A DNA stretch of 64,000 nt from Spiractinospora alimapuensis (lineage in GTDB: Bacteria; Actinomycetota; Actinomycetes; Streptosporangiales; Streptosporangiaceae): the NCBI RefSeq assembly GCF_018437505.1, contig NZ_CP072467.1, forward strand, positions 1,550,001 through 1,614,000, in the 5' to 3' direction. The translations under genes and the position numbers were made by a program. Positions 2,094 to 39,654 of the stretch are shown one piece after another (the stretch's first letter is position 1; each line of letters begins with the position of its first letter). The notes beneath the pieces were generated by a model. It worked only from the letters and a program-made list of their open reading frames with translations. It ran no database searches and was not told the origin of the DNA.

Positions 2094-3572
2094 TCAGTAC
2101 GTGACGCAGACAGAGCGCCATTCCGTGTAGAAGTCCCACACCTGGGGCGAGCACTCAGGCGCACCGTGCTGGGACATCTTGGTGCCCCCGTGCGGCAGAT
2201 GCGCGTAGGACCCGACACCAGGACGATTCACATGGAGCATCCCCGCCTCGAACCACTCAAGAGCCTCGAAAGCCCGACCAATATCGCTGGTGAACAAAGC
2301 GCCGGACATCCCGTAGCGCACCCCGTTGGCGACGCGAAGGGCGTCGTCGAAGCCATCGCAGTCGACCACTGACAGGACCGGCCCGAAGACCTCCTCCTGG
2401 GCGATCGCGCTCTCCTCGGGCACGTCGAACAGGACTGTGGGCTCGACGTAGTTCCCGGGCGGGTCGATCTCGGCCGCCACTCCGCCGCAGAGCACCCGGG
2501 CGCCGGCGGCGCGGGCGGTGTCGATGGCGGTGACGCACTCCTCGCGACGTTGGGCGGTGATCAGCGGGCCGACGTCGGTGGCGTCGTCGGAGCCCGGGCC
2601 CACGCGTAGGCGGGTCACACGGTCCCGAAGTCTGTCGAGGAACTCCTCACGCACCGTGGTGTCGACGATCGCGCGGCTGGTGGCACTGCATCGTTGTCCG
2701 GCCTGCCCGAACGCCCCGCGCACGATCGCGTCCACCGCCAGATCGAGGTCGGCGTCGGCGAGGACGATCGCCGCGTTCTTACCGCCAAGCTCGAGTTGTG
2801 TCCGCAGAAGGCGTCCGGCACCGGCACGCTGGATCGCGGTTCCGACGGCGAGGGACCCGGTGAAGGACACCCCGGCGACGGTGGGGTGTTCCACCAGGGC
2901 CTCGCCCGCGGCCCGGTCTCCCTGCACCAGGTTGAGCACGCCGGGGGGCAGGGTGGCCTCGTGGAAGAGGTCGACGAGTCGCGCGGCGGTGAGTGGGGTG
3001 AACGGAGACGGTTTGAGGACGGCCGTGCAGCCGGCGAGCAGTGCCGGGGCGACCTTCCACACGGGTATCGCGAGAGGGAAGTTCCATGGGGTGATGAGGG
3101 CCGTCACCCCGAGCGCGCGCCGGAACGTGAACGCCAGGGTGCGTGGGTCCTCGGCGGGGGTGGTCACCCCGTTCAGCCGGCGCGCCTCACCGGCGGTGAA
3201 GTCCAGGATGGCCAGCGCCCGATCCACCTCGCCCCGCGCCTCGTCTCGTCGTTTCCCCTGCTCTCGCGTGATCGTCTGGGCGAAGTCCTCGCGTCGTTCC
3301 CGTAGGGCGTTCTCGACTCGGCGCAGGTATCGGGCTCGCTCGATGGCGCCAAGAGCGCGCCACTCCTCCTGCGCCCGTGCCGCCGCCGTCACCGCGAGTT
3401 CGGCGTCCGCGCCACCGGACTCGGCGAACGCGCCGATGACGTCGGTCGGGTCGGCGGGGTTGGTGTTGGTGCGGGTCTGTCCGCTCTCGGGCCGTACCCA
3501 TCGGCCGTCGAGGTAGTTGCCGTGGATAGGTGTGTGGCCTGGCCTCGTGGACGTCGGGTCCTGTGTCCCCAC
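2094..3572 (-). CDS. phnY: Aldehyde dehydrogenase, probable phosphonoacetaldehyde dehydrogenase
   Basis: NAD(P)-dependent aldehyde dehydrogenase, 492 aa. The NAD-binding region includes TPWNFPLAIP, the general-base Glu lies in LELGGKN and the catalytic Cys in GQRCSATSR. On family features alone it could be any ALDH. The specific name rests on context: the next gene upstream encodes phosphonoacetate hydrolase, and PhnY supplies its substrate by oxidising phosphonoacetaldehyde to phosphonoacetate in 2-aminoethylphosphonate breakdown. The start is a GTG at 3572 preceded by GAGGAG. A 43-base gap separates it from phnA, so they probably form one operon. No PhnW-type aminotransferase is in this window. 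Confidence 0.72.
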   Translation of the reverse strand: MGTQDPTSTRPGHTPIHGNYLDGRWVRPESGQTRTNTNPADPTDVIGAFAESGGADAELAVTAAARAQEEWRALGAIERARYLRRVENALRERREDFAQTITREQGKRRDEARGEVDRALAILDFTAGEARRLNGVTTPAEDPRTLAFTFRRALGVTALITPWNFPLAIPVWKVAPALLAGCTAVLKPSPFTPLTAARLVDLFHEATLPPGVLNLVQGDRAAGEALVEHPTVAGVSFTGSLAVGTAIQRAGAGRLLRTQLELGGKNAAIVLADADLDLAVDAIVRGAFGQAGQRCSATSRAIVDTTVREEFLDRLRDRVTRLRVGPGSDDATDVGPLITAQRREECVTAIDTARAAGARVLCGGVAAEIDPPGNYVEPTVLFDVPEESAIAQEEVFGPVLSVVDCDGFDDALRVANGVRYGMSGALFTSDIGRAFEALEWFEAGMLHVNRPGVGSYAHLPHGGTKMSQHGAPECSPQVWDFYTEWRSVCVTY

Positions 3573-3615
3573 CGGTCGCTCCTCAGGTTTCAGGGGCTCG
3601 TCAGCGCCGTGCGGA

Positions 3616-4863
3616 TCACGCGGGGGAACGCGCGACGTGGTTGAGCGCGAGCCAGTACGCGTCGTAGTTCCGCGGTTCGTGGGTCGGCGGCAGGCGCGTC
3701 ATTGGCCGGTTCAGGATCAGCGGCACGCGCTGCTCGGTGCGGCCGCCGTGGGATCGCAGTGGTTCGCGGAGTTGGGAGAGGTCATGGCGATCCTCCGCGG
3801 TACCGATGACGGTGTCCCGCTCCGCGAGCGCCACGAGCTCCCCGATGCGGTCCGGGGGGAGCTCGAAGGCCGCGGCCGCCTCTGCCCGACCGAGGACCTC
3901 GGCGACCCCCGGCGTCGACGCCAGGACCGACCGCGCCGCCGCGACGTCACCCGGCTCGGGAAGATGGATGGTGGCGAACGAACCAAGCGCCCCGTGGTGC
4001 ACGGTGTAGGGGTCGGTGATGGGGAGGACGACCCTGCTTCGCCCCTCCCCCAGGGCCTCGTCCAAGAGCCGTTGGGCGTAGACCACGTTGGGCCGCCCCT
4101 CCGCGTCGGACTTGCGGTTCATCCCGTGGTCCCCCGTCACCACCAACACCACGCCCAGGGCGTCGAGCTCCTGGAGGTAGCCGTCGAGCATGGCGTAGAA
4201 GTCGTTGGCGACCGGTGAGCCGGGGGCGTGCTTGTGCTGGATGTAGTCGGTCAACGACAGGTAGACGAGGTCGGGCCGGTCCCGCTCCATGAGCCGGACA
4301 CCGGCCGCCAGCACGAACTCGCTGAGGTCCGCACTGTAGACCTCCGGCTGGGGCAGGCCGACAAGGTCGAGGACCCGCTCGACACCGTTCTCGGCGAGGC
4401 TGGCCCGGGAGGCGTGCTCGGCGGAGAAACACACGCCGTCGCGGAGCCCCGCCCCGAGGAGCCGGCGCAGCTTGTCCTTCGCGGTGACCACGGCCACCCT
4501 CGCCCCGACTCGGGAGAACGCGGCGAACAGCGTGGGGCTACGAAGCAGCTCCGGACTGTTCATCATCACCTCCTCTCCTCGCTCGGCGTCATAGAAATAG
4601 TTGCCGCAGATCCCGTGGACGGCGGGCGGAGCCCCGGTGGCAATGGAGATGTTGTTGGGGTTGGTGAAGGATGGCATCGCCGACGTGGCCGTCCCCACCG
4701 ACCCTGCCTCGCTACCGGCGAGCCGCTCCAGATAGGGCATGCGGCCCGCCGCGATCGCTCGTTCGTGGTACGCGGGCTCGCTTCCGTCGACACACACCGC
4801 CACGACCGGCGTCTCGGGGAACGGGTACTCCCGTCCCGCGAGCGTCACTGGTTCGCCACCCAT
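3616..4863 (-). CDS. phnA: Phosphonoacetate hydrolase
   Basis: Alkaline-phosphatase-superfamily enzyme, 415 aa, that splits the C-P bond of phosphonoacetate to acetate and phosphate. Family-specific motifs are present: VVAVCVDGSEPAY (metal Asp), MPSFTNPNN with the nucleophile Thr, HGICGNYFYD, LTDYIQHKHAPG (Asp and His), VTGDHGMN (Asp-His) and SHGGRTEQRVP (late metal His). The combination of FTNPNN and HGICGN distinguishes it from nucleotide pyrophosphatases. The start at 4863 has AGGAAGGTG-type sequence just upstream; a longer frame to 4929 lacks conserved sequence. Co-oriented with the PhnY-like gene and divergent from the alcohol dehydrogenase. Confidence 0.88.
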   Translation of the reverse strand: MGGEPVTLAGREYPFPETPVVAVCVDGSEPAYHERAIAAGRMPYLERLAGSEAGSVGTATSAMPSFTNPNNISIATGAPPAVHGICGNYFYDAERGEEVMMNSPELLRSPTLFAAFSRVGARVAVVTAKDKLRRLLGAGLRDGVCFSAEHASRASLAENGVERVLDLVGLPQPEVYSADLSEFVLAAGVRLMERDRPDLVYLSLTDYIQHKHAPGSPVANDFYAMLDGYLQELDALGVVLVVTGDHGMNRKSDAEGRPNVVYAQRLLDEALGEGRSRVVLPITDPYTVHHGALGSFATIHLPEPGDVAAARSVLASTPGVAEVLGRAEAAAAFELPPDRIGELVALAERDTVIGTAEDRHDLSQLREPLRSHGGRTEQRVPLILNRPMTRLPPTHEPRNYDAYWLALNHVARSPA

Positions 4864-5321
4864 CTCCACACCTTCCTGCTCGGAGAGACTCCGTGACCGG
4901 ACACCGTGTATCCGCGGCGCTCGGGTCACGTTTTCTGTTCTAACAGGACCACCACGAATTGAGCACCCATGGTCGGGCTATGACCGCGATAGCGAAACCC
5001 TATGGGCATCGGCGCACATAATCGTTCACTTATGGGCCGCATAGGATTTCGCGGAGTTCCACCATGAACACCTGGATGCTAGAACCGAAGAAGAGGACGA
5101 ATCCCATGGAACAGGCTGGACACGTCGTGGACACACCGCGGCCATCGTGGCGCCACGCTACGGAAATCCCTCGACGAAATCCTGGACGCGGGCGCTGTCG
5201 ACACGTTCGGACCCACGTGATCAATTCACGATCGCGCCGGACGTGTGAATGGCGCCACCAACCGGTGGTCGGGAATTCGAATTCCAGGAGCCATGTTTCC
5301 CGCTTTCGAGGGAGTTGATCG
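4864..5321. other. Intergenic region between divergent phosphonate genes
   Basis: About 460 bases with no convincing gene between phnA (leftward) and the alcohol dehydrogenase (rightward). It is more AT-rich than its surroundings around 4930-5060 and should hold the promoters of both transcription units. It contains the palindrome listed at 5272-5285 and a small CTGTT/AACAG inverted repeat near 4940. No regulator gene is encoded between the two units. Confidence 0.6.
5272..5285. promoter_or_regulatory. 14-bp perfect palindrome, candidate operator
   Basis: GGAATTCGAATTCC reads the same on both strands and lies about 36 bases before the TTG start of the alcohol dehydrogenase. An AT-rich perfect palindrome is unusual in this GC-rich sequence. 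A role as a regulator site for the phosphonate genes is an inference from position. Confidence 0.4.
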
Positions 5322-6407
5322 TTGTTGTCGGGTCGTCAGAACGCACACGCCGCCGTCTGGTACGGACACTCCGACGGTTTCCAGCAGCGCGAGGTCCCGA
5401 TTCCCGTTCCGGAGTCCCGCGAGGCCGTGGTCCGGGTTCGGGCCGCGACCATCTGTGGCAGCGACCTGCACAGCCTCCGCGGCGACCGGGAGGTTCCCAC
5501 ACCCACGATCCTGGGTCACGAGGCGGTCGGTGAGATCGTCGCGGCGGGGGCGAACGCCACGGCGCACGACGGGCGATCGCTGACCCTTGGCACCCGGGTC
5601 ACCTGGACCATCGGTACCGCCTGTGGCACCTGCCCCCGGTGTTCCCGTGGCATGGGCCAGAAGTGCGTCGGGGTGCGCAAGTACGGGCACGAGGCGGTCT
5701 CGCCGCGCTGGTTCCTCAATGGTGGCCTGGCCACCCACTGCCACCTGCTCCCGGACACCGGCGTCGTCGTGGTGCCGGCGGAGATCCCGGACCTGGTGGC
5801 GGCGCCCGCCAACTGCGCGACGAGCACCGTTGCCAACGCGCTGGCCGACGTCCGCAAGGGGGTGGTGCGCGCCGCGGTGGTCCAGGGATGCGGCATGCTC
5901 GGACTCACCGCCGTCGCCTGGCTGCACGAGCGCGGCGTGGAGACGATCGTGGCCTGCGACACCGACGAGGACCGCCGCGCGCACGCCGGGAGCTTCGGTG
6001 CGACCGCCGCCGTGTCGCCGGACGAGTTGTTCACGACCGTCGCCGACCACACCGGCGGCGAGGGCGCCGACCTCGTGATCGAGCTCTCGGGCAGCTCCGC
6101 GGCCGTGGCCGACTCGGTCGCCCTGTTGGCGATCGGAGGCACCCTGCGGCTGGTGGGATCCGTCTCCCCCAGCGCCCCCGTGGCGCTCCACGCGGAGGAC
6201 ATCGTGCGTCGGCTGCTCACCGTTCGCGGTACACACAACTACACGACACACGACCTCGTGCAGGCGGTTGCCTTCCTCGAACGTTCGCACGCCACTTACC
6301 CGTTCGCGTCGCTCGTCGGTCCACGGTTTCCCCTCACGGAGATCGACCGCGCGATCGGCCACGCCGAGACGCACCGTCCACCTCGCGTGGCGGTGCTCCC
6401 CGGCTGA
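5322..6407 (+). CDS. Phosphonate-catabolism-associated zinc alcohol dehydrogenase
   Basis: Medium-chain zinc dehydrogenase, 361 aa. It has the catalytic-zinc Cys motif ICGSDLHSLRGD, the second-shell motif GHEAVGEI, structural-zinc Cys residues (CGTCPRCSRGMGQKC) and a Rossmann core (VVQGCGMLGL). It matches the family described as putative phosphonate-catabolism-associated alcohol dehydrogenase (TIGR03366, from memory). Its position beside phnA and phnY supports this; the alcohol substrate is unknown but could be a hydroxyethylphosphonate-type compound. The start is a TTG with GAGGGA 9 bases upstream. Divergent from phnA. Confidence 0.78.
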   Translation: MLSGRQNAHAAVWYGHSDGFQQREVPIPVPESREAVVRVRAATICGSDLHSLRGDREVPTPTILGHEAVGEIVAAGANATAHDGRSLTLGTRVTWTIGTACGTCPRCSRGMGQKCVGVRKYGHEAVSPRWFLNGGLATHCHLLPDTGVVVVPAEIPDLVAAPANCATSTVANALADVRKGVVRAAVVQGCGMLGLTAVAWLHERGVETIVACDTDEDRRAHAGSFGATAAVSPDELFTTVADHTGGEGADLVIELSGSSAAVADSVALLAIGGTLRLVGSVSPSAPVALHAEDIVRRLLTVRGTHNYTTHDLVQAVAFLERSHATYPFASLVGPRFPLTEIDRAIGHAETHRPPRVAVLPG

Positions 6408-6502: not shown

Positions 6503-7228
6503 GTGAACGTGACGCGAGAACCGGGAAGCCGCCCGGCGGGGCCCGAGGTCGCGCTGTTGCCGGTGGGCAGCCAGGAACAACACGGTCCACACCTTCCGCT
6601 GGACACCGACACGCTGATCGCCACCACCGTCGCCGAGGAGCTCGCGCGGGCCTATTCCGTTCGTCTGCTGCCCCCGATCGCCTACTCCTGTTCGCACGAG
6701 CACGACGCCTGGCCCGGCACGGTGAGCATCTCCGCGACCACGCTGTCCGCGCTCGTCTCCGACATCGCCGCTTCCCTCCGCCGGGCGGGGACGTCACGAC
6801 TGGTCCTCGTGAACGGCCACGGGGGAAACTACGTCCTGGGCAACGTGGTACAGGAGTCATCCGGCCGCATGGCGCTGTTCCCCGGTGTCGCCGAGTGGGA
6901 GGCCGCACGGCGCACGGCCGGGGTGGAGACCTCGGGCGAGGTCGACATGCACGCCGGGGAACTGGAGACGTCACTCCTCCTGCACGCACGCCCCGACGTG
7001 GTGGCGCGCGGGTTCGAGGCCCGCGACGAACTCACCGGGGACCGACCGCATCTGCTCACTCGTGGCCTCGCCGCCTACAGCGCCTCCGGAGTCGTCGGGC
7101 GTCCCTCACTCGCCTCGGCCAACAAGGGCCGCCTCGTGCTGGGAGACCTGGTCCGGTCCTTCTCCGGCCACCTCACCGCGCTGGGTGTCACATCCCCGGT
7201 TCCGGGTGAGCACGCGCCGGAACAGTAG
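6503..7228 (+). CDS. Creatininase-family amidohydrolase (possible formamide hydrolase)
   Basis: Creatininase-fold metal hydrolase, 241 aa. Ligand motifs are complete: GSQEQHGPHLPLDTD near the N-terminus, SHEHDAWPGT, NGHGGN and DMHAGELETS. The family includes creatininase, mycofactocin MftE and archaeal ArfB, which deformylates the pyrimidine FAPy made by GTP cyclohydrolases. No other mycofactocin gene is nearby, while a GTP cyclohydrolase II paralogue lies 6.4 kb downstream in the same gene cluster, so an ArfB-like role is the better inference. Its 3' end overlaps the convergent flippase-like gene by 123 bases. It is probably expressed from its own promoter (see 6491). Confidence 0.82.
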   Translation: MNVTREPGSRPAGPEVALLPVGSQEQHGPHLPLDTDTLIATTVAEELARAYSVRLLPPIAYSCSHEHDAWPGTVSISATTLSALVSDIAASLRRAGTSRLVLVNGHGGNYVLGNVVQESSGRMALFPGVAEWEAARRTAGVETSGEVDMHAGELETSLLLHARPDVVARGFEARDELTGDRPHLLTRGLAAYSASGVVGRPSLASANKGRLVLGDLVRSFSGHLTALGVTSPVPGEHAPEQ

Positions 7229-8131
7229 GACACCCAGCCCGGGGAGACTCGCGACGAACGCCAAGGCGCCGTAGGTGACCGCGGTCGCGAACCCGAGCTC
7301 CGGGGCGAGACCGACCGCGCCGAAGGCGAGGACCGCCGCGGCCTCCCGCGGCCCCCAGCCGGCGACGTTCACCGGGATCGACATCGCCACCAACGCCAGG
7401 ACCGCGATCGGCAGCACGAACGACGCCGGGGTCCGCGGGGTGGCCACCCCCGCCGCGACCAGGAACAGCGCGACGTGTCCCCCAATGGCCGCGACCGACA
7501 GGAAGAGCACGATGGGGCCGGTACGGCGCCCGAACAGCGCGACGCGCGCGTCGGCCAGGGCGACGCGCGTCTGGTGGCGTGCTCTCCCCCACCACTCCAG
7601 GTGGCGTACCGGCGAGCGCACGAGACTGAGAACGAGGAACGTCAGGACGGCGACCGCCGTCGCGCCGAGAGCGAGGGCGGGGAGAGCGCTCGAGGTGAGC
7701 TGGGCGAGGGAGAACGGCAGGACGAGCAGGACCGTCGCACCGACCACCAGTAGCACCGCCTGTCCGGCGACCCGCTCCAGCACCACCGCGCGGGCCGCCG
7801 GGCCGTACGCCCCGGACTCCCGGCCGTGACACGCCGCCCGGTGCACGTCACCGAGTACTCCGGCCGGCAGTACGGCGTTGAGGAACACGGCACGGTAGTA
7901 GTCCGCGACCGCGACCCGCATCGGGAGTGGCACCCCTACCGCGGCCGCGACGACGCGCCACCTCCACGCACACAACACGGTCGTGGCCAGCCCGATCCCC
8001 AACGCGGCCACCACGGCCCTCAGGTCCACCGCGGCCAAGGCGGCGACGGCGGCATGTGGTCGGACCTGCCACGCCAACGCCCCGAGTACGGCCAGACCGC
8101 CGCCGACCCGAATGACCCGCCGCCACGGCAT
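7106..8131 (-). CDS. Lysylphosphatidylglycerol-synthase-TM/flippase-like membrane protein
   Basis: Polytopic membrane protein of the UPF0104/LPG_synthase_TM type, about 341 aa with roughly eight hydrophobic segments. Conserved features include the FLNAVLPAGVLGDVHRA loop, the VLERVAGQ segment and the NVAGWGPREAA motif near the C-terminus. Relatives occur as the membrane half of MprF or next to glycosyltransferases, where lipid flipping or lipid-linked sugar handling is proposed. The start is uncertain (ATG 8131; a GTG lies just upstream). The tail after about residue 300 is hydrophilic and overlaps the creatininase gene on the other strand. It probably belongs to the pterin-like cluster. Confidence 0.78.
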   Translation of the reverse strand: MPWRRVIRVGGGLAVLGALAWQVRPHAAVAALAAVDLRAVVAALGIGLATTVLCAWRWRVVAAAVGVPLPMRVAVADYYRAVFLNAVLPAGVLGDVHRAACHGRESGAYGPAARAVVLERVAGQAVLLVVGATVLLVLPFSLAQLTSSALPALALGATAVAVLTFLVLSLVRSPVRHLEWWGRARHQTRVALADARVALFGRRTGPIVLFLSVAAIGGHVALFLVAAGVATPRTPASFVLPIAVLALVAMSIPVNVAGWGPREAAAVLAFGAVGLAPELGFATAVTYGALAFVASLPGLGVLLFRRVLTRNRGCDTQRGEVAGEGPDQVSQHEAALVGRGE

Positions 8132-9424
8132 CGTCACGACACCACCGGGGAAGCGGCTCGCCGCTTCCCGACGACATCCGGCCGGAAGGAGCCTCTCGAT
8201 CCGCGGTGGAGCGAGCCCACAACACCCACGCCCCCGTCCGTTCCCCGTTCGTTGGGCGGCCACGACCCATCCACGTCCATCGCGCCGACCCGCGCGCCAC
8301 GGTCCAACGACCGAACACACTCTCGACCCACCCCGCCGCCCGGGAACCCCGAGTACCCCAAGGCGGAGCTGGGCCAGGTCCGTAGCGCTCGGCACACCGC
8401 ACGGCGCGCTCCACACCACCGTCGAGGCGACGCTCCGCGCCGCCTTCTTACTCGACGGCCGGCGGCGTCACGACTGGTCCACCGCCCTCGCTCGAATGGT
8501 GGCGCCGCGAACACCGTCCGGCCACCACTCCCCGGGACCGTCACGGCCTCGTAGTCGATCACAACCTGGTCGTGTTCCTTCCGTGCTGTGTCTCTCTGGA
8601 GGCGCTGTCGGGGGCGTTCGGAGCTCGTGACCGTCAGGACGGCGATCGCCGCGTCGATCCTCTCGAACAGCCGACCAGGACGCCCCGCACGGATCGTCCT
8701 GCGTGACGACGCCCGAGCCCCCGCTCGGGCGTCGTCACGGAGCCGCCCCCGTAGCGGCGACGCCCTCTCCCTCATCCGAAAACCCGCAAAAACACTTCCC
8801 AGCCCCACGGGCCAGGACCGGACGAACAACGTTGCCGCACCGTCGCGCGGCGACCGACTTCGGAGTGCACGAGCAATCCCCGACAGACCGACGCTGGAGA
8901 AGCGGATCTCCCTCATGCGTCTCCGATCGCGTCAACCAAGAGAACAGTCATCTTTACGTTGTAGATCAACAAAGGGTTGCCGGAGGACCGCCGCCGGATC
9001 GAGGGCTCGGTCCACCAGCGCGCCCCACGCGGTCCTCCTCGACCTGATCCTGGGTTTCGACACTGCTCCGGCCGTGCGGGTGCGGGACCGGTTGGGCGTT
9101 CCGGGTTCTCCGCGAGGAATCGGAACGCGTCACACGCCCACGTCCCAGGAGCCGTCCGTCGACCGGTTCCGGGCCTGGTCCCCCACGCGGCAGCGGTACT
9201 CCCGCACGAGAGAGGCGCCGTCAGCACGTCGACACCCATTCCGCGCTCGTTCGAGGAACGTCCGCCGACCGCGTCGGTCGGTGCTCTCGCCGACGCGGCG
9301 TGGGCTTCGGTCTCTCGGAAGCGGTGACGGTGCCCGGTTCCCCGTCCCGCCACGGGGAACCGCACCACGTCGCCCCGTGGGCCGATGGGGTAGGCCACGG
9401 GTATCCGCGTGGGCCGCCCCGGAT
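8132..9424. other. 1.3-kb intergenic stretch without a convincing gene
   Basis: All six frames here translate to Arg/Pro/Ser-rich sequence with no recognisable domain and poor codon pattern. This is unusually long for the compact cluster around it. It contains the strong hairpin at 8702-8739 and an AT-rich pocket around 8940-8985. The hairpin may end the methyltransferase operon, and the rest may carry the promoter of the flippase-like gene or the decayed remains of a lost gene. Confidence 0.5.
8702..8739. terminator. 17-bp perfect hairpin, probable terminator
   Basis: CGTGACGACGCCCGAGC (8702-8718) is the exact reverse complement of 8723-8739, with a 4-base CCCC loop. There is no T-run, as is common for actinobacterial terminators. 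It lies about 690 bases beyond the methyltransferase stop. Confidence 0.6.
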
Positions 9425-10267
9425 TCACCCGCGCTCCGTGGGCAGAGCCAGCAGGTCCTCGTGGTCGATCACCGCCCGGAGGGTGCCCTGCCGGATGGCG
9501 TGCATTCTCTGGCTGAGGTAGTCGCGACTGGGCGGGATCAGGCGAGGACACTGGTCCAGGGCGGCTCCGACCCAGCCGTGGAGCCACTGCGACAGGAGTA
9601 TGTGGTCACCGTTTCCCAGATTCCACGGGCTGGGACGGCGGAGGACGGTCAGGCCGTGACCCTGGAGGGCTCGTGCCGCGACGAGCGGCGCGTCAGGGCC
9701 AAGGAGGGTGCGTCCCGCGGTGGTGCGTCGTTGGTGGGCGTCGAACGCCGCCGCGAATGTGGAGTCCAGGGCGTGCGGCGGGGTGAGCTCGACCCGGCCG
9801 GTCACACTGAGGCTCCACAGCACCGCGCACCGCGCGGCGGCGCAGGCTCGGGCGAGGGCGGCCACCTCCCCGTGGGTCAGCAGGTCGAGCACCGCCGACC
9901 CGGTGACGAGAGCGGCGCCGGCGAAGTCCCCGGCCTCCAGCCGCGTGAGGTCGCCGCGCCAGGTCTCCACGGTGACGGGGCTGCCGTCGGCACAGACCGA
10001 GGACTCGTCGCCGGGGGCGTCCCGGCTCGCCTCCGCGAGGAGTCGGGGGTCGCTGTCGTGCAGCACCCAGTGCTGTGGTCCGGGCAACCTTCGGGCGAGC
10101 CAGCGCCGCATGGACCCCGTGCCAGCGCCGATGTCGTGGATCTCCAGCGGCCCCGAATGTTGGGCGAGGTGGGTGGCGAGGGGCTCCAGCAGGGAGCGGG
10201 CCCGCGCAGCGCCGTCGGCCACCTCCCGGGCCGCCAGCCAGTCGGGCGGGAACTCACCCGTACTCAC
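9425..10267 (-). CDS. SAM-dependent methyltransferase
   Basis: Class I methyltransferase, 280 aa. Motif I is IHDIGAGTGSM and the acidic residue after the second strand is in VLHDSDPRLL. The GTG start at 10267 overlaps the stop of the glycosyltransferase in a GTGA overlap, so it is the last translationally coupled gene of the ribA-paralogue operon. The substrate cannot be read from sequence; the position suggests it modifies the product of the cluster. The C-terminal third contains the family-typical WNLGNGDHILLSQWLHGWV stretch. Confidence 0.82.
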   Translation of the reverse strand: MSTGEFPPDWLAAREVADGAARARSLLEPLATHLAQHSGPLEIHDIGAGTGSMRRWLARRLPGPQHWVLHDSDPRLLAEASRDAPGDESSVCADGSPVTVETWRGDLTRLEAGDFAGAALVTGSAVLDLLTHGEVAALARACAAARCAVLWSLSVTGRVELTPPHALDSTFAAAFDAHQRRTTAGRTLLGPDAPLVAARALQGHGLTVLRRPSPWNLGNGDHILLSQWLHGWVGAALDQCPRLIPPSRDYLSQRMHAIRQGTLRAVIDHEDLLALPTERG

Positions 10268-11307
10268 CCCGCACGTGTCCGCTCCAACGCTGCCACCATG
10301 CATCGCGCGGTCTCCCCCCATCCGCTCAGCGTGGTCCGCCGCGACGTCGCCGCCCGACGCAGCCGCCGCCGCGTGTCCACTTCTGTCAACCACATCCGCA
10401 AGGCGCTGGTCAGCGCGCCGACCTCGCCCGGCGGCACTAGAATCCCCGGAACTCCGCCCTCGGTAACCTCGCCGAGGGTGTTCGGTAGCGCCCCTCCGGT
10501 CGTCGTGAGCACCGGAATCGCGCGGGCCAGCGCCTCGGTCACCACCATCGCGTAGGTCTCGGTGTGCGACGGAAGCACTGCGAGATCGGTGTGGTGGTAG
10601 ATCTCGGCGAGCTCGGTGGCGGACCTCGGACCGAGGAGACGGACCCGATCGGTGAGCGCCGAGCGACGAATCGTGGACCGCAGCGCGTCGGCGAACCGGG
10701 CATCGCGCTCGTCCGGTCCGACCAGCAGGCACTCCCAGTCCAGGTCCCGCAGCCGCGCGAGGGCCGCGATCAGCGTGTCCTGCCCCTTTCGTGGGGTCAG
10801 CGCGGCGACGCAGACGAGCCGCGTCCCCGTGGTGGTTCCCGCGGCCACGGGGGCAGGATCGGTGCCGGGCGCGGCGACGTGGATCCGGGACTCGGGGAGG
10901 AGGTGGCGGGCACGCAGATGCTCCGCCGCCCACTGGCTCGTGGCGACGACCGTCGGCACGGCGCGCAGGACTCGACGCTCGCGAGCGTCACGCCGTCTCG
11001 CCTCCTCGGGAGCCAGTCCCGTCTCCTCCGCGAGTGGGAGATGCACCAGCACGGCGATCCGCAGCCGTCTCGTGTGGGGCAGCACGACCCCTGGGGTCCC
11101 GCAGGCCACGAGGCCGTCCATCAGGACCGTGGCACCGTCCGCGACGGAGCCGAGCGTCTCGTCGAGTCGGGCCCGCGCGTCGTCGTCCGGACACGGCCAG
11201 GGCCCCGCGACCGCCGCCTCCTGGACGCTGAGCCCGCGTCGCCGAAGCTCGTCGCACACCCGCCGGTCGTAGACGTTGCCGCCGCTGGGGAACGAAGGAT
11301 CGTCCAC
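10264..11307 (-). CDS. GT4-family glycosyltransferase (apparent frameshift at N-terminus)
   Basis: GT-B fold glycosyltransferase, 347 aa from the GTG at 11307. The donor-binding domain is clear: VCVAALTPRKGQDTLI, LLVGPDERDARF, and the acidic motif in LPSHTETYAMVVTEALA. The frame lacks the first beta strand normally found before DDPSFPSGGNVYDRR. That missing piece, [13 protein letters not shown]-like sequence, is present just upstream in another frame, beginning with a GTG at 11347 that overlaps the PTPS stop as GTGA. The intact gene therefore probably spanned 10264-11347, with an indel near 11311. The sugar donor and acceptor are unknown. Confidence 0.8.
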   Translation of the reverse strand: MDDPSFPSGGNVYDRRVCDELRRRGLSVQEAAVAGPWPCPDDDARARLDETLGSVADGATVLMDGLVACGTPGVVLPHTRRLRIAVLVHLPLAEETGLAPEEARRRDARERRVLRAVPTVVATSQWAAEHLRARHLLPESRIHVAAPGTDPAPVAAGTTTGTRLVCVAALTPRKGQDTLIAALARLRDLDWECLLVGPDERDARFADALRSTIRRSALTDRVRLLGPRSATELAEIYHHTDLAVLPSHTETYAMVVTEALARAIPVLTTTGGALPNTLGEVTEGGVPGILVPPGEVGALTSALRMWLTEVDTRRRLRRAATSRRTTLSGWGETARCMVAALERTRAG

Positions 11308-11343: not shown

Positions 11344-11742
11344 TCACAGGGCCCGCTCGTAGCTCGCCCACGCGACGTGCGACTCGTGCAGGGTGACGGT
11401 GAGCCCGACGAGTCCGCGTGCCTCCTCGCCGAGGGCTCCGCTGTGGACCCGCTCGGCCATCCGGTCGGCGACGACGCGGGCGAGATACTCCGTGGTCGTG
11501 TTCACGCCCCTGAAGGCGGGATCCTCGTCCAGGTTGCGGTAGTTGAGCGCGGCGAGGATTTCGGTCAGGGCCGCGGACGCCCGACCGATGTCCACGACCA
11601 GGTTGTCCCGGTCGAGTTCCTCACGCCGAAAGGTCGCGTCCACGATGAAGGTCGCGCCGTGGAGCCCTCGCGCGGGGCCGAAGGTCTCGCCGTGGAAACT
11701 GTGGGCGACCATCATGTGGTCGCGAACGGTGAGCGCGAACAT
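11344..11742 (-). CDS. 6-pyruvoyltetrahydropterin synthase (PTPS/QueD) homologue lacking catalytic residues
   Basis: T-fold protein, 132 aa, full length for the family. The pterin-anchoring Glu survives (LHESHVAW), and H14, H17 and H28 are present. The normal HGH zinc pair reads HGA (A30), and there is no Cys anywhere, so the catalytic Cys is absent. This matches what I recall for the Streptomyces coelicolor homologue SCO6650, whose structure was reported to lack zinc and the catalytic triad but keep a pterin-like pocket. It should therefore bind a pterin-like or pyrimidine compound but not do the classical reaction. It starts 15 bases after the MDR stop. Confidence 0.85.
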
Positions 11743-11757
11743 GGTGACTCCTGTGGG

Positions 11758-12780
11758 TTACGTCGAGGGATAGACGATGCGGTGGCAGAGCGTCGCCGCG
11801 GCGTCCACGTCGGGTGGTGCCGCCGAGGGGTGCCCGCCGGGTGGCGGTGTTGGGCCGGCGATCCGCGCCATGACCGCGGGCAACTCCGCGAACGCGCTCT
11901 CGCCGGAGAAGAGCGCGTCGAACGCCGGGTCGGCGAGCAGGCGGAGAGCCAGGGCACGGCGGTCGTTCGCGGTGCGGGTCGAACTCCGCGCGGGTGCGAC
12001 GGTGCCCACCTGGCTGGCCCGGAGTCCCAGACGGCGGGAATGGAACTCCTCCCCCAGCGCCGCCTGGACACCCGCCGTCCCGTACCAGCTCAGCTCCAGG
12101 ACCTCCCGGTCGGCGGCGAGGAGGCGCAAGGACGTCTCCAGTCCCGCGCCGGTGCCGCTGGTGTGCACCACCAGGTCACAGCCACGGGTCGCCTCGTCGG
12201 GGGGCGCGAATCGTGCTCCCATCGCCTCGGCCGTCGCGGCGCGGGACGGATCGACGTCGACCAGCTCGATGTCGACACCAGGGATCCGCGCGAGCAGGCG
12301 TGCGACACAGCAGCCCACCATGCCGGCGCCCACAACCGCGACGCGGTCGCCGAGCCGCGGCGCCCCGTCCCACAACGCGTTCACCGCGGTCTCCACCGTT
12401 CCCGCGAGCACGGCACGGTGGGCCGGCACGTTCTCGGGCACTGGGAGGACCGCGTGGCGGGGAACGGTGTAACGCGTCTGGTGAGGGTAGAGGCAGAAGA
12501 CGTCGCGCCCCACGAGCGCGTCCGGCCCGCGCTCAACCACACCAACACTGAGGTAGCCGTACTTGACCGGGCCAGGGAACTCGCCCTCCTGGAACGGGCA
12601 CCGCATCACCTCGCGCTGGCTCGCGGGGACCAGACCATGGAAGACCAGCGTCTCGGTGCCGCGGCTCACCGCGGAGAACCTCGTGCGCACCAGGACCTCG
12701 TCCGTGGTGGGCGGTGGGACCGACACCGGACGGATCTCGCACGTCCGAGGTGCCGTCAGCCAGAGTGCCTGCGCTCGCAT
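11758..12780 (-). CDS. MDR-superfamily dehydrogenase without catalytic zinc ligands
   Basis: Medium-chain dehydrogenase/reductase, 340 aa, with a Rossmann motif VAVVGAGMVGCCVAR and an acidic nucleotide-ribose position in ELVDVDPSRA. The usual catalytic Cys motif (CGxD) is replaced by FSAVSRGTETLVFHG, so a canonical zinc alcohol dehydrogenase reaction is unlikely; BchC-like members have similar RGTE sequences. It probably reduces or oxidises an intermediate in the cluster. The ATG at 12780 lies inside the 3' part of the preceding CDP-alcohol phosphatidyltransferase frame. Confidence 0.82.
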   Translation of the reverse strand: MRAQALWLTAPRTCEIRPVSVPPPTTDEVLVRTRFSAVSRGTETLVFHGLVPASQREVMRCPFQEGEFPGPVKYGYLSVGVVERGPDALVGRDVFCLYPHQTRYTVPRHAVLPVPENVPAHRAVLAGTVETAVNALWDGAPRLGDRVAVVGAGMVGCCVARLLARIPGVDIELVDVDPSRAATAEAMGARFAPPDEATRGCDLVVHTSGTGAGLETSLRLLAADREVLELSWYGTAGVQAALGEEFHSRRLGLRASQVGTVAPARSSTRTANDRRALALRLLADPAFDALFSGESAFAELPAVMARIAGPTPPPGGHPSAAPPDVDAAATLCHRIVYPST

Positions 12781-13591
12781 CCGTCTCCCTCACGATGTTC
12801 CGCTCCGTGCCATCTCCCCGCACCTCTCGTGGCGCCCTGGACGCGGCGACGACCGGGTGCGGGGACACGTGTCGCGCGGCGTGACGGAGCCCATGGACGT
12901 CCCGAGCGAACGACCAGGTCAGCGCGCATAGCGCCACCGCCAGGACACCGACCGCGACGGGTCCGGGGAACAGCGTGGAGCTCACCACGACCAGGGCGAC
13001 GCCCTGGGCGACGGCGACCGTCTTCCGGGCCTGGCTCGGGGGTAGGGCGCCCCCCAGCCACGGCCACCACGCCGACGCCGCCGCGAACACGTAGCGCATG
13101 CCGCCGATCGCGAGCACCCACCACCCGTACGCCTGCGCGACGTGCACGCTCAACACCAGGATCAGCAGCGCGTCGATCTCCATGTCGAACCGCGCGCCCC
13201 GTTCCGACACCGCCCCGGTCCGCCGGGCCAGCGCGCCGTCCACAGCGTCCAACGACAACGCGGTGGCCGCCAGGGCGACGAGGAGGGTCACGTCGACCAC
13301 GCCCGCGGCGCCGTCCGCCACGAGGACCGCTATCCCCCCGACCAACACCGCGCGGGTGAGGGTCACTCGGTCCGCCCCGGTGGCGGGCCCGGGGTCGTAC
13401 CGCCGCAGTACGGCCCACAGCAGTGGTGCGCCCACGAGCGCGTAGGTCAGACCGGTGAGCCATCCGGCCAGACCGACGCCGAGGGTCGCCCAGAACACGA
13501 GGACGAGGACGAGCGTCAGCCACGCCGCACCGGCGACGCTGTGCCACAGTGGTCGCCCGGTCACGACGGTCCGGGGCATCCGGTCACCCAT
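12533..13591 (-). CDS. CDP-alcohol phosphatidyltransferase
   Basis: Membrane enzyme with the family signature D-AVDGALARR...G-ARFD-MEID, matching DG(x)2AR(x)8G(x)3D(x)3D. Several hydrophobic segments flank it. The family transfers a phosphoalcohol between a CDP-activated alcohol and a hydroxyl acceptor, making phospholipids or soluble phosphodiesters. The start at 13591 overlaps the ribA-paralogue stop by 8 bases (ATG 13579 is an alternative). The natural end should fall near residue 270. Instead the frame continues 82 residues into the MDR gene with Arg/Gly/Pro-rich sequence, suggesting a lost stop or small indel. The true 3' end is uncertain. Confidence 0.8.
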   Translation of the reverse strand: MGDRMPRTVVTGRPLWHSVAGAAWLTLVLVLVFWATLGVGLAGWLTGLTYALVGAPLLWAVLRRYDPGPATGADRVTLTRAVLVGGIAVLVADGAAGVVDVTLLVALAATALSLDAVDGALARRTGAVSERGARFDMEIDALLILVLSVHVAQAYGWWVLAIGGMRYVFAAASAWWPWLGGALPPSQARKTVAVAQGVALVVVSSTLFPGPVAVGVLAVALCALTWSFARDVHGLRHAARHVSPHPVVAASRAPREVRGDGTERNIVRETDASAGTLADGTSDVRDPSGVGPTAHHGRGPGAHEVLRGEPRHRDAGLPWSGPREPARGDAVPVPGGRVPWPGQVRLPQCWCG

Positions 13592-14264
13592 GGCGTCGCC
13601 CCGCGTTCCGCGCCGACGCGCCGTCGCCCAGGTGCGGCACCGGAACACCGTTCAGGTGGGGCAGGTCGTGACCGAGCCGGTCCCGCTTGGCGGTCAGGTA
13701 GCCGATGTTGCGGTCGTGCACGGGCACCAACAGGGGCATTCGCCCGGCCACCCTGGTGCCGTACCGGGTGAGCGCGGCGACCTTGTCGGGGTTGTTGGAC
13801 ATCAGCCGCACGGACCTCACCCCCAGGTAACTGAGCGCACGGGCCGCCGGTCCGTAGTCACGAGTGTCGACCGGCAGGTCCAGCGCCGTCGCCGAGTCAA
13901 CCGTGTCCAGGCCGAGCCCGTCCTGCAGCGTGTGCGTGCGCACCTTCGCCAGCAGACCGATGCCGCGCCCCTCGTGCCCACGCAGGTACACGACGACGCC
14001 CCGCCCCGCGTCGACGATGGCGTCCAGCGCGGCCCGCAACTGCTCCCCACACTCGCAGCGCAAGGCACCGAAGACGTCACCCGTGAGGCACTCCGAGTGC
14101 ACACGGACCGCGACGTCCTCCACCCCGTCCACCTCCCCGAGGACGAGCGCGAGATGCTCCTGGCCGTCCAGCGGATCCCGAAACGCCACCGCGCGATACA
14201 CGGCCTGCCGGGTCGCCAGTTCCGACTCGGCGACCTCGCGTGGATCGATCGCGTGCTCGTGCAT
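13584..14264 (-). CDS. GTP cyclohydrolase II paralogue with His in place of the active-site Tyr
   Basis: RibA-type protein, 226 aa. The zinc Cys residues are C59, C70 and C72 (HSECLTGDVFGALRCECG) and the catalytic-loop motif is HEGRGIGL. The conserved Tyr of E. coli RibA (KIRAYALQ, Tyr105) is His111 here (KVRTHTLQ). In Streptomyces coelicolor SCO6655 the same Tyr is Met, and that enzyme was reported to stop at the formylated pyrimidine FAPy. By analogy this is likely a FAPy-forming enzyme and not a riboflavin one. First gene of the leftward operon. The start at 14264 has a GGGG/GGAC-rich ribosome site. Confidence 0.88.
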   Translation of the reverse strand: MHEHAIDPREVAESELATRQAVYRAVAFRDPLDGQEHLALVLGEVDGVEDVAVRVHSECLTGDVFGALRCECGEQLRAALDAIVDAGRGVVVYLRGHEGRGIGLLAKVRTHTLQDGLGLDTVDSATALDLPVDTRDYGPAARALSYLGVRSVRLMSNNPDKVAALTRYGTRVAGRMPLLVPVHDRNIGYLTAKRDRLGHDLPHLNGVPVPHLGDGASARNAGRRHG

Positions 14265-38116: not shown

Positions 38117-38575
38117 TCACGCCTCGTGCAGGAGATGGGTGTTCGGTCGTCGCGCGGCCGCGGCGAGCTCTCCTCGTCGTACGGTCTCGACTCCGGCGGC
38201 GCGCAGCCGCTCCGCGCCGCTGGCGGGCACGAAGACCGGCGGCTCGGACCAGGCGTAGACGACACGGTGGACCCCGGCGGCGATGATCCGTTCCGCGCAC
38301 GGACGCGGGCGGGAGGCGCGCGCGCCGCACGGCTCCAAGGAGCTGTAGAGGGTGGCGTCAGAGAGGTCCGCTCCAGGTGGGAGCCGCTCCAGCGCCACCT
38401 CCTCAGCATGGTCGTGGGGGTCACGTTGGCGCGAGTACCCCTCCGCCAGGACCTGGCCGTTCCCCGAGACGATGACACATCCCACAGAGAAAGCCGTGGT
38501 CGACGGAGGACACTCCCACGCGAGACCCACCGCGCGACGGAGCCACCGGTCGTCGGTGTCCGCCGACGGAGTCAC
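38117..38575 (-). CDS. RibD-type deaminase domain protein
   Basis: Zinc cytidine-deaminase-fold protein, 152 aa. The zinc motifs are HAEEVALE and PCGARASRPRPC, with the RibD-like opening DDRWLRRAVGLAWECPPS. In riboflavin synthesis the RibD N-terminal half deaminates the diaminopyrimidine ribityl/ribosyl phosphate. Here it is a separate gene, overlapping the reductase gene by ATGA. It could serve riboflavin synthesis or act on a pyrimidine in a related pathway. Confidence 0.85.
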   Translation of the reverse strand: MTPSADTDDRWLRRAVGLAWECPPSTTAFSVGCVIVSGNGQVLAEGYSRQRDPHDHAEEVALERLPPGADLSDATLYSSLEPCGARASRPRPCAERIIAAGVHRVVYAWSEPPVFVPASGAERLRAAGVETVRRGELAAAARRPNTHLLHEA

Positions 38576-39273
38576 CGTGACGCGCCCGAGAGAAGGTAGT
38601 GCAGCGCGATCACGCCGTCGAGGTCCTCCGAGCCGACCAGGGTCATCGGGGTGATGGCCGTGTGCGGGAAGAAACCTGGGTGTACGAACCGCGGCGCGTC
38701 GGCGTCACCGACGAAGAACGGGGCCACGGCCAACCGCAGCTCGTCGACCAGCCCGGCGGTGAGGAACCCGGTGTGCACCTTCCCGCCTCCCTCGACGATC
38801 AACCGGTAGAGGCCACGGCGTGCGAGGTCCGCGACCACGAATCCGAGATCCAGGGGATCGCCCGCGTCGATGACCGTGACGTCGTCGTTGCCCGCCAGAC
38901 GCGCGCCGGTGTCGAAGAAGGCGGGTGAGGCGGCGTAGACGAGCTTGGGCGAGTCACCGGTAGTGAAGAACTCCGCGTTGGGGTCGACGTCACCGCTGGT
39001 GGTCAGCGTGACCTTGGTGAGGTCACCAGGCTTTCCCTCCTCTGTGCGGCGGTCACGGCGTTCGGTCGATCGCAACAGGAGGCGCGGATTGTCCCGACGT
39101 ATGGTCTCCGCACCGACCAGGATCGCGTCGCATCCCGCCCGAATCTCGTCGACGCGATCGAAGTCGGCGTCGGATGACAGGCGAAGGCGATGATCCGTGG
39201 CGTCGTCTATGTATCCGTCCACGGACATCGCGCAGCTGAGAATGGTGTACGGCCGCTCCAGGGGTGCGCTCAT
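38572..39273 (-). CDS. RibD C-terminal/dihydrofolate-reductase-like reductase
   Basis: 233 aa with the bacterial bifunctional deaminase-reductase C-terminal fold. Motifs are CAMSVDGYIDDATDHRLRLS, AILVGAETIRRDNPRLL and LIVEGGGKVHTGFL (NADPH site). It reduces the ribosyl side chain of the pyrimidine intermediate in riboflavin synthesis. It is translationally coupled to the deaminase. The start at 39273 is where similarity begins; upstream sequence is not conserved. No other rib gene lies beside it. Confidence 0.85.
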   Translation of the reverse strand: MSAPLERPYTILSCAMSVDGYIDDATDHRLRLSSDADFDRVDEIRAGCDAILVGAETIRRDNPRLLLRSTERRDRRTEEGKPGDLTKVTLTTSGDVDPNAEFFTTGDSPKLVYAASPAFFDTGARLAGNDDVTVIDAGDPLDLGFVVADLARRGLYRLIVEGGGKVHTGFLTAGLVDELRLAVAPFFVGDADAPRFVHPGFFPHTAITPMTLVGSEDLDGVIALHYLLSGASR

Positions 39274-39654
39274 GGTGAACCAGGCTAGGCCATTCCCGCC
39301 CCCTTCCCCCACCTGTCGCCCGTGTTCGGCCGATTGTGGCGACGAGGTTGGCACGCCCCGCTCGCCCCGGAGGGGCTCCGGTCGCCGTGACCGGGGAGCG
39401 CACGGCCGCCGACGTGGGTCGCTCCCCCGGGTGCCGGGGAAAGTGGTTCGGTCAGGGGCGCCGCTTCTCGGGTTTCGGATTGCCCGGATGTCGGTGACGC
39501 GGACGCGGACGGCTCGATCGTTCCACGCTCGGAGAACGCACCACGGGGCCGTTGGCGTCCGGACCGGCGTACCCCCTCCAATGTGTCGCGTCCGTGGCGG
39601 CGCCCGTCCCGGGGACGCGACACGCGCCGCACCGGCGTCCGAGCGTATGCCGGC
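39274..39654. other. Intergenic region, nothing recognisable
   Basis: About 380 bases between the reductase start and the P1 peptidase stop. Frames here give only Arg/Pro/Gly-rich sequence. It presumably contains the promoter of the split RibD pair. Confidence 0.5.

Follow-up and report, generated by a model that had tools for sequence, protein, structure and literature searches.

A GTP cyclohydrolase II homologue without the active-site tyrosine, conserved together with a creatininase-family hydrolase, suggests a two-enzyme route from GTP to a diaminopyrimidine in actinobacteria

To our knowledge, SCO6655 and SCO6650 of Streptomyces coelicolor have been known since 2006-2008 without an assigned pathway. 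Spoonamore et al. reportedly found in 2006 that SCO6655, a GTP cyclohydrolase II (GCHII) with methionine at position 120, turns GTP into FAPy, and that the exchange Met120Tyr restores the normal deformylated product. The paper on the structure of SCO6650 is said to describe a protein that has lost the PTPS catalytic residues, in line with the PTPS-like proteins considered here. No description of SCO6648-6655 as a pathway was found in the open literature that we searched. SCO6655 is listed among the S. coelicolor genes whose expression is opposed to predicted flux, a set that mostly increases in stationary phase (PMC2853524), and PMC3509567 cites the SCO6655 study for changed GCHII activities only. 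In Sinorhizobium meliloti, BrbF, a member of the creatininase family, releases formate from AFRPP (the same compound as FAPy); its authors reported the FAPy-forming partner as undiscovered (PMC9478397).

The window analysed here is a 64,000-nucleotide stretch of the Spiractinospora alimapuensis genome. At 13584..14264 on the minus strand it encodes a stand-alone GCHII homologue, with no RibB domain, which is the genome's second GCHII gene. The protein scored 199.6 bits against PF00925 in a profile search (cut-off 23.3) and matched RibBA 4i14 (E = 7.9e-59) and E. coli GCHII 2bz0 (E = 1.7e-45) in the PDB. The initial annotation had proposed that histidine replaces Tyr105 of E. coli RibA and that the zinc cysteines are all kept, and both points were borne out. 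The codon at 13932-13934 is CAC on the minus strand (GTG on the plus strand), and the alignment with E. coli GCHII (2bz0) has no gap at the site (KVRTH against KIRAY); the number His111 is correct when counted from the Met at 14264 and equals residue 113 of frame P0001. The zinc ligands are Cys59, Cys70 and Cys72 (P0001 61, 72 and 74). The first of these, in HSEC (14088..14090, minus strand), is invariant in all 112 rows of the alignment, as are the aspartate and arginine of the DxR motif (13860..13868, minus strand; P0001 D135 and R137), which correspond to Asp126 and Arg128 of the E. coli enzyme. The other two cysteines flank a clade-specific glutamate in RCECG (Cys-Glu-Cys at 14049..14057, minus strand), where the enzymes with tyrosine have aspartate. 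With histidine at the Tyr105 site the protein lacks the tyrosine of canonical RibA, and it scored 195.2 bits against the RibA equivalog model TIGR00505, short of the cut-off of 205.85. The genome's other GCHII (G000:C1:1124010) is within a 691-codon open frame, the size of a RibBA, and carries the tyrosine; with this RibBA present, a second copy for riboflavin supply is unlikely.

Relatives of the window GCHII were gathered from genomes of the same family and the same class, and from named records of Nocardiopsis, Actinomadura, Saccharopolyspora, Amycolatopsis, Lentzea, Pseudonocardia, Kibdelosporangium and Streptomyces. In a tree computed without the columns around the Tyr105 site, the 71 distinct GCHII lacking the tyrosine all fell to the same side of a branch with SH-aLRT 92, adjacent to RibBA. 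Two starred subgroups were resolved within this clade, one of Streptomyces and Kibdelosporangium (methionine) and one holding the remainder, mostly with histidine. Residues at the site were His (35), Met (24), Leu (7), Gln (3), Asn (1) and Ile (1), with tyrosine in none of the 71, whereas all 93 other distinct GCHII of the same survey, including the RibBA of the window genome, had tyrosine. A sequencing error behind the histidine can be ruled out, CAC or CAT being found in 35 clade members, and so can a lone oddity, histidine being the commonest residue of the clade. The surrounding motif is otherwise nearly fixed (EGRGIGL..K....LQ). Within the family, 34 of 201 genomes, including that of the window, carry a clade member (62-72% identity to the window GCHII), and every one of these carriers has at least two GCHII; the clade copy is thus an addition, never the sole GCHII in this sample.

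At least seven changes have occurred at the site inside the clade, none of them to tyrosine. Histidine is encoded by CAC in 33 members and CAT in two, tyrosine in the other enzymes by TAC in 91 and TAT in two, so that a single C-to-T step would turn CAC into the tyrosine codon TAC. As the tyrosine was never regained despite these changes and the short mutational distance, the selected feature of the clade seems to be the absence of tyrosine rather than the presence of histidine. The glutamate between the zinc cysteines follows the same division, RCECG occurring in 70 of the 71 Tyr-less GCHII and in none of the 93 with tyrosine, which all have RCDCG; the mark is not perfectly specific, since one further RibBA (L235) combines CECG with tyrosine. 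Together, a residue other than tyrosine at position 105 and a glutamate between the zinc cysteines make a two-residue signature that could correct annotations of such proteins as riboflavin enzymes.

Searches of genomic neighbourhoods with the window proteins (tblastn) recovered a conserved set of eight genes, encoding the GCHII, a CDP-alcohol phosphatidyltransferase, an MDR dehydrogenase-like protein, a PTPS-like protein, a GT4 glycosyltransferase, a methyltransferase-like protein, an LPG_synthase_TM protein and a creatininase; the synteny extends over several families. All but the creatininase gene lie on the minus strand of the window. The CDP-alcohol phosphatidyltransferase gene (12533..13591; PF01066, 40 bits) is a conserved neighbour, and its start and the GCHII stop share 8 bases. 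Its open frame, doubtful in its C-terminal part, continues uninterrupted for about 250 bases within the next gene, which may reflect a frameshift or a genuine overlap. Two core genes are likewise conserved neighbours, namely the zinc-alcohol-dehydrogenase-like (MDR) oxidoreductase (11758..12780; TIGR01202, 52.8 bits, below cut-off) and the GT4 glycosyltransferase (10264..11307; PF00534/PF13692). They are accompanied by the methyltransferase-like protein (9425..10285; PF13649, a weak 22.3 bits, below cut-off; also a conserved neighbour) and the flippase-like LPG_synthase_TM membrane protein (7106..8149; PF03706, 103 bits). The creatininase-family amidohydrolase, our proposed FAPy deformylase, is encoded on the plus strand (6503..7228; PF02633, 207.7 bits) and has orthologues in the Tyr-less clusters. 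In some Nocardiopsis-type clusters (L157, L159, L174 and similar), a gap of about 3-4 kb between the glycosyltransferase and methyltransferase genes suggests extra inserted genes. Beside the cluster, at 2094-6407 of the window, are genes for phosphonoacetate hydrolase PhnA (541.6 bits) and an HpnZ-type dehydrogenase (369.5 bits), both above cut-off, and for an aldehyde dehydrogenase, which likely serve phosphonate catabolism; they were rejected as cluster members because they are absent beside the clade in other genomes.

The PTPS-like protein (11344..11742, minus strand; PF01242) ties this locus to S. coelicolor. Its one PDB match is SCO6650 (3d7j; E = 2.9e-64, about 71% identity), and because the PTPS-like protein of a conserved cluster is this close to SCO6650, we assign the window locus to the SCO6655 type. 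In the PTPS-like proteins the catalytic cysteine of PTPS (at FGKC), the Asp-His pair and one zinc histidine are missing (HGHN became HGAT, LDHRNLD became LNYRNLD), which places the window protein in the SCO6650 subfamily instead of with 6-pyruvoyltetrahydropterin synthase or QueD. Streptomyces members such as that of S. curacoi (L135, Met) stood in for SCO6655, and the window GCHII shares their clade and their cluster as well as a switch residue other than tyrosine, the mark of an SCO6655-type, FAPy-forming GCHII. In the Streptomyces arrangement the PTPS and GCHII genes are five apart, matching the numbers SCO6650 and SCO6655. The histidine itself is a new substitution within a known functional type.

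Less expected is that the Tyr-less GCHII is conserved as a pair with the creatininase, a pair that in sister clusters is coordinately replaced by a GCHII with tyrosine; no description of this pairing was found in the papers searched, though Spoonamore et al. may have discussed the gene context in 2006. Seeding the search with the PTPS-like protein, instead of the GCHII, returned 58 of the 395 genomes of the class, with two kinds of neighbourhood around the PTPS core: one combines a Tyr-less GCHII with a creatininase orthologue (57-71% identity to that of the window), the other lacks a creatininase. Across the core-gene set, and with genome-wide searches included, all 66 assessable Tyr-less clusters have the creatininase as against none of the 24 others. 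The raw count was 65 to 1, the one exception (L073) being apparently identical with genome G199, which has the creatininase. Where a Tyr-less locus seemed to lack it in the stretch examined, it turned up at another place in the genome or at a contig edge; in the one remaining case, Nocardiopsis salina (L066), the assembly shows no creatininase and the cluster is cut by a contig end. The orthologue is absent genome-wide from the 24 genomes with the core but no Tyr-less GCHII, in which creatininase relatives were found only at 30-45% identity and at other places, apart from one 38-residue fragment at 50%. In 13 of these genomes that were checked, all 20 GCHII have tyrosine.

Because a single origin underlies the Tyr-less GCHII, the clusters in the raw count are not independent events, and we therefore checked the count on a tree of the core genes (PTPS, dehydrogenase and GT4). 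This tree requires four changes of the Tyr-less state and contains three (starred branches) to four (all branches) independent pairs; in essentially all of these (on average 2.9 of 3) the creatininase shifts in the same direction as the Tyr-less GCHII. With three to four independent events, a sign test of co-gain or co-loss cannot reach significance. The same coupling is visible within genera. In g31, the Tyr-less GCHII and the creatininase are both present in one genome (G128) and both missing from two (G030 and G080); in g47, the two genes are missing from G134 and present in its relatives. The remainder of the cluster persists in G030, G080 and G134.

A GCHII lies near the core in 13 of the creatininase-free clusters; all 13 have tyrosine, and 11 are of a different GCHII type. 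In Tyr-type clusters an ArfC-like reductase accompanies the GCHII, which points to the deformylated nucleotide as the compound that is used. The different GCHII type occurs with an ArfC-like RibD_C reductase, and without a creatininase, in L194, L196, L198, L201, L204, L206, L208, L209, L210, L215 and L221. L199, L211, L213 and L214 also have a RibD_C reductase close to the GCHII or to core genes. A few Tyr-less clusters (L071, L075, L152, L191, L193 and L197) likewise contain a RibD_C, a more distant one. Core clusters without a nearby GCHII (L202, L205, L211, L212, L213, L214, L216, L217 and L220) presumably obtain their precursor through GCHII encoded at other loci of the same genome. The cluster of the window has no reductase of its own. 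Further along the window, an ArfC-like RibD_C reductase gene (38572..39354, minus strand), with 47-57% identity to the reductase near the GCHII in Tyr-type clusters, overlaps a gene for a stand-alone RibD-type deaminase (38117..38575, minus strand), the genome's best RibD-deaminase match; no match to the fused RibD model scored above cut-off in this genome. The reductase of this split RibD is a possible supplier of the reduction step, and reductase and deaminase may simply serve riboflavin.

The exchange of His, Met, Leu, Gln, Asn and Ile without recovery of tyrosine, together with the co-occurring creatininase-family hydrolase, fits release of FAPy; this outcome, already proposed in the initial annotation, is a well-supported prediction from sequence for the window GCHII. 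We consider it likely that the Tyr-less GCHII releases FAPy, that the creatininase of the cluster deformylates it, and that the deformylated pyrimidine feeds the cluster. The GCHII would open the imidazole ring of GTP, free pyrophosphate and stop at the formylated pyrimidine nucleotide (FAPy/AFRPP). The creatininase would then remove formate to give 2,5-diamino-6-ribosylamino-4(3H)-pyrimidinone 5'-phosphate, the precursor that the cluster would consume, possibly with an ArfC-like reduction next. Jointly the two proteins would replace one ordinary GCHII, as ArfA and ArfB do in archaea. The basis of this reading is sequence, clade membership, cluster content and co-occurrence, from which we infer both activities, the order of the steps and the later steps. 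As speculation, the dehydrogenase, altered PTPS, glycosyltransferase, CDP-alcohol phosphatidyltransferase, methyltransferase-like and flippase-like proteins would lead to a modified, perhaps membrane-linked or exported product.

The substrate of the creatininase bears on a second reading, in which FAPy is released and its formyl group kept in the final product, the creatininase acting on another, later intermediate. Five metal-site residues (E25, H27, D36, H106 and E153) are invariant in 16 members. The protein is only distantly related to ArfB (36.6 bits against the equivalog model NF033501, cut-off 180) and closer to the MftE peptidase model TIGR03964, where it again falls short (150.1 against 172 bits), so that it was rejected as an MftE, the mycofactocin peptidase. 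As the curated cut-offs make it neither ArfB nor MftE, we propose its substrate from context and precedent; co-occurrence does not name that substrate, and the pathway is uncharacterised, which leaves room for retention of the formyl group. Against this, clusters that share the core and lack the pair have a GCHII with tyrosine, which would give the deformylated compound directly, and no creatininase, and BrbF is a precedent for deformylation of FAPy by a creatininase-family protein (PMC9478397). On balance, retention of the formyl group is unlikely. It is very improbable that the window GCHII is an ordinary duplicate for riboflavin supply, forming the normal product with histidine in the role of tyrosine. 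Histidine can donate and accept hydrogen bonds, and all other catalytic residues are kept; however, close relatives in the same cluster have Leu, Ile, Met, Gln or Asn at this position, every sampled carrier has another GCHII, and the methionine form, SCO6655, is the one said to release FAPy. Decay to a non-catalytic paralogue, suggested by six residue types at a site free to vary, can be dismissed as scarcely credible, given that the zinc cysteines, EGRGIGL, the DxR aspartate and arginine and a lysine close to the C-terminus do not vary among the 71 sequences and that the synteny holds across several families.

Under the two-enzyme route, the SCO6650/SCO6655 cluster gains a testable first half, with FAPy release, separate deformylation and possibly an ArfC-like reduction, and the Tyr-less GCHII becomes a model for the partner that the authors of BrbF reported missing. 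We are evenly divided on a broader reading, in which an actinobacterial two-enzyme route from GTP to a diaminopyrimidine, convergent with ArfA/ArfB, is a detachable module that feeds, by way of the altered PTPS, a possibly lipid-linked or exported metabolite derived from a pterin or pyrimidine, and in which the pairing could point to the missing BrbF partner.

Among known systems, the nearest is SCO6655, with which the window GCHII shares a clade of stand-alone, extra GCHII, the SCO6650-type PTPS cluster, and the loss of the tyrosine with the other catalytic residues kept; it differs in having histidine instead of methionine, in its identity of about 57% to the Streptomyces members, and in a rearranged gene order. 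Canonical RibA and RibBA have the fold, zinc cysteines and ring-opening residues in common with it, but the window protein lacks Tyr105, has glutamate between the zinc cysteines, and is an extra copy outside the riboflavin operon. BrbF of S. meliloti and Brucella belongs to the creatininase family and catalyses the reaction that is proposed for the cluster creatininase; BrbF, however, serves riboflavin synthesis, whereas the window creatininase has a FAPy-type GCHII in its own cluster. The archaeal ArfA (GTP cyclohydrolase III), ArfB and ArfC follow the logic that we propose here, with FAPy formation and deformylation on two proteins, and an ArfC-like reductase occurs in some of the clusters; yet the GCHII homologue is unrelated to ArfA, the creatininase is not ArfB by model score, and the route of the window likely does not lead to riboflavin.
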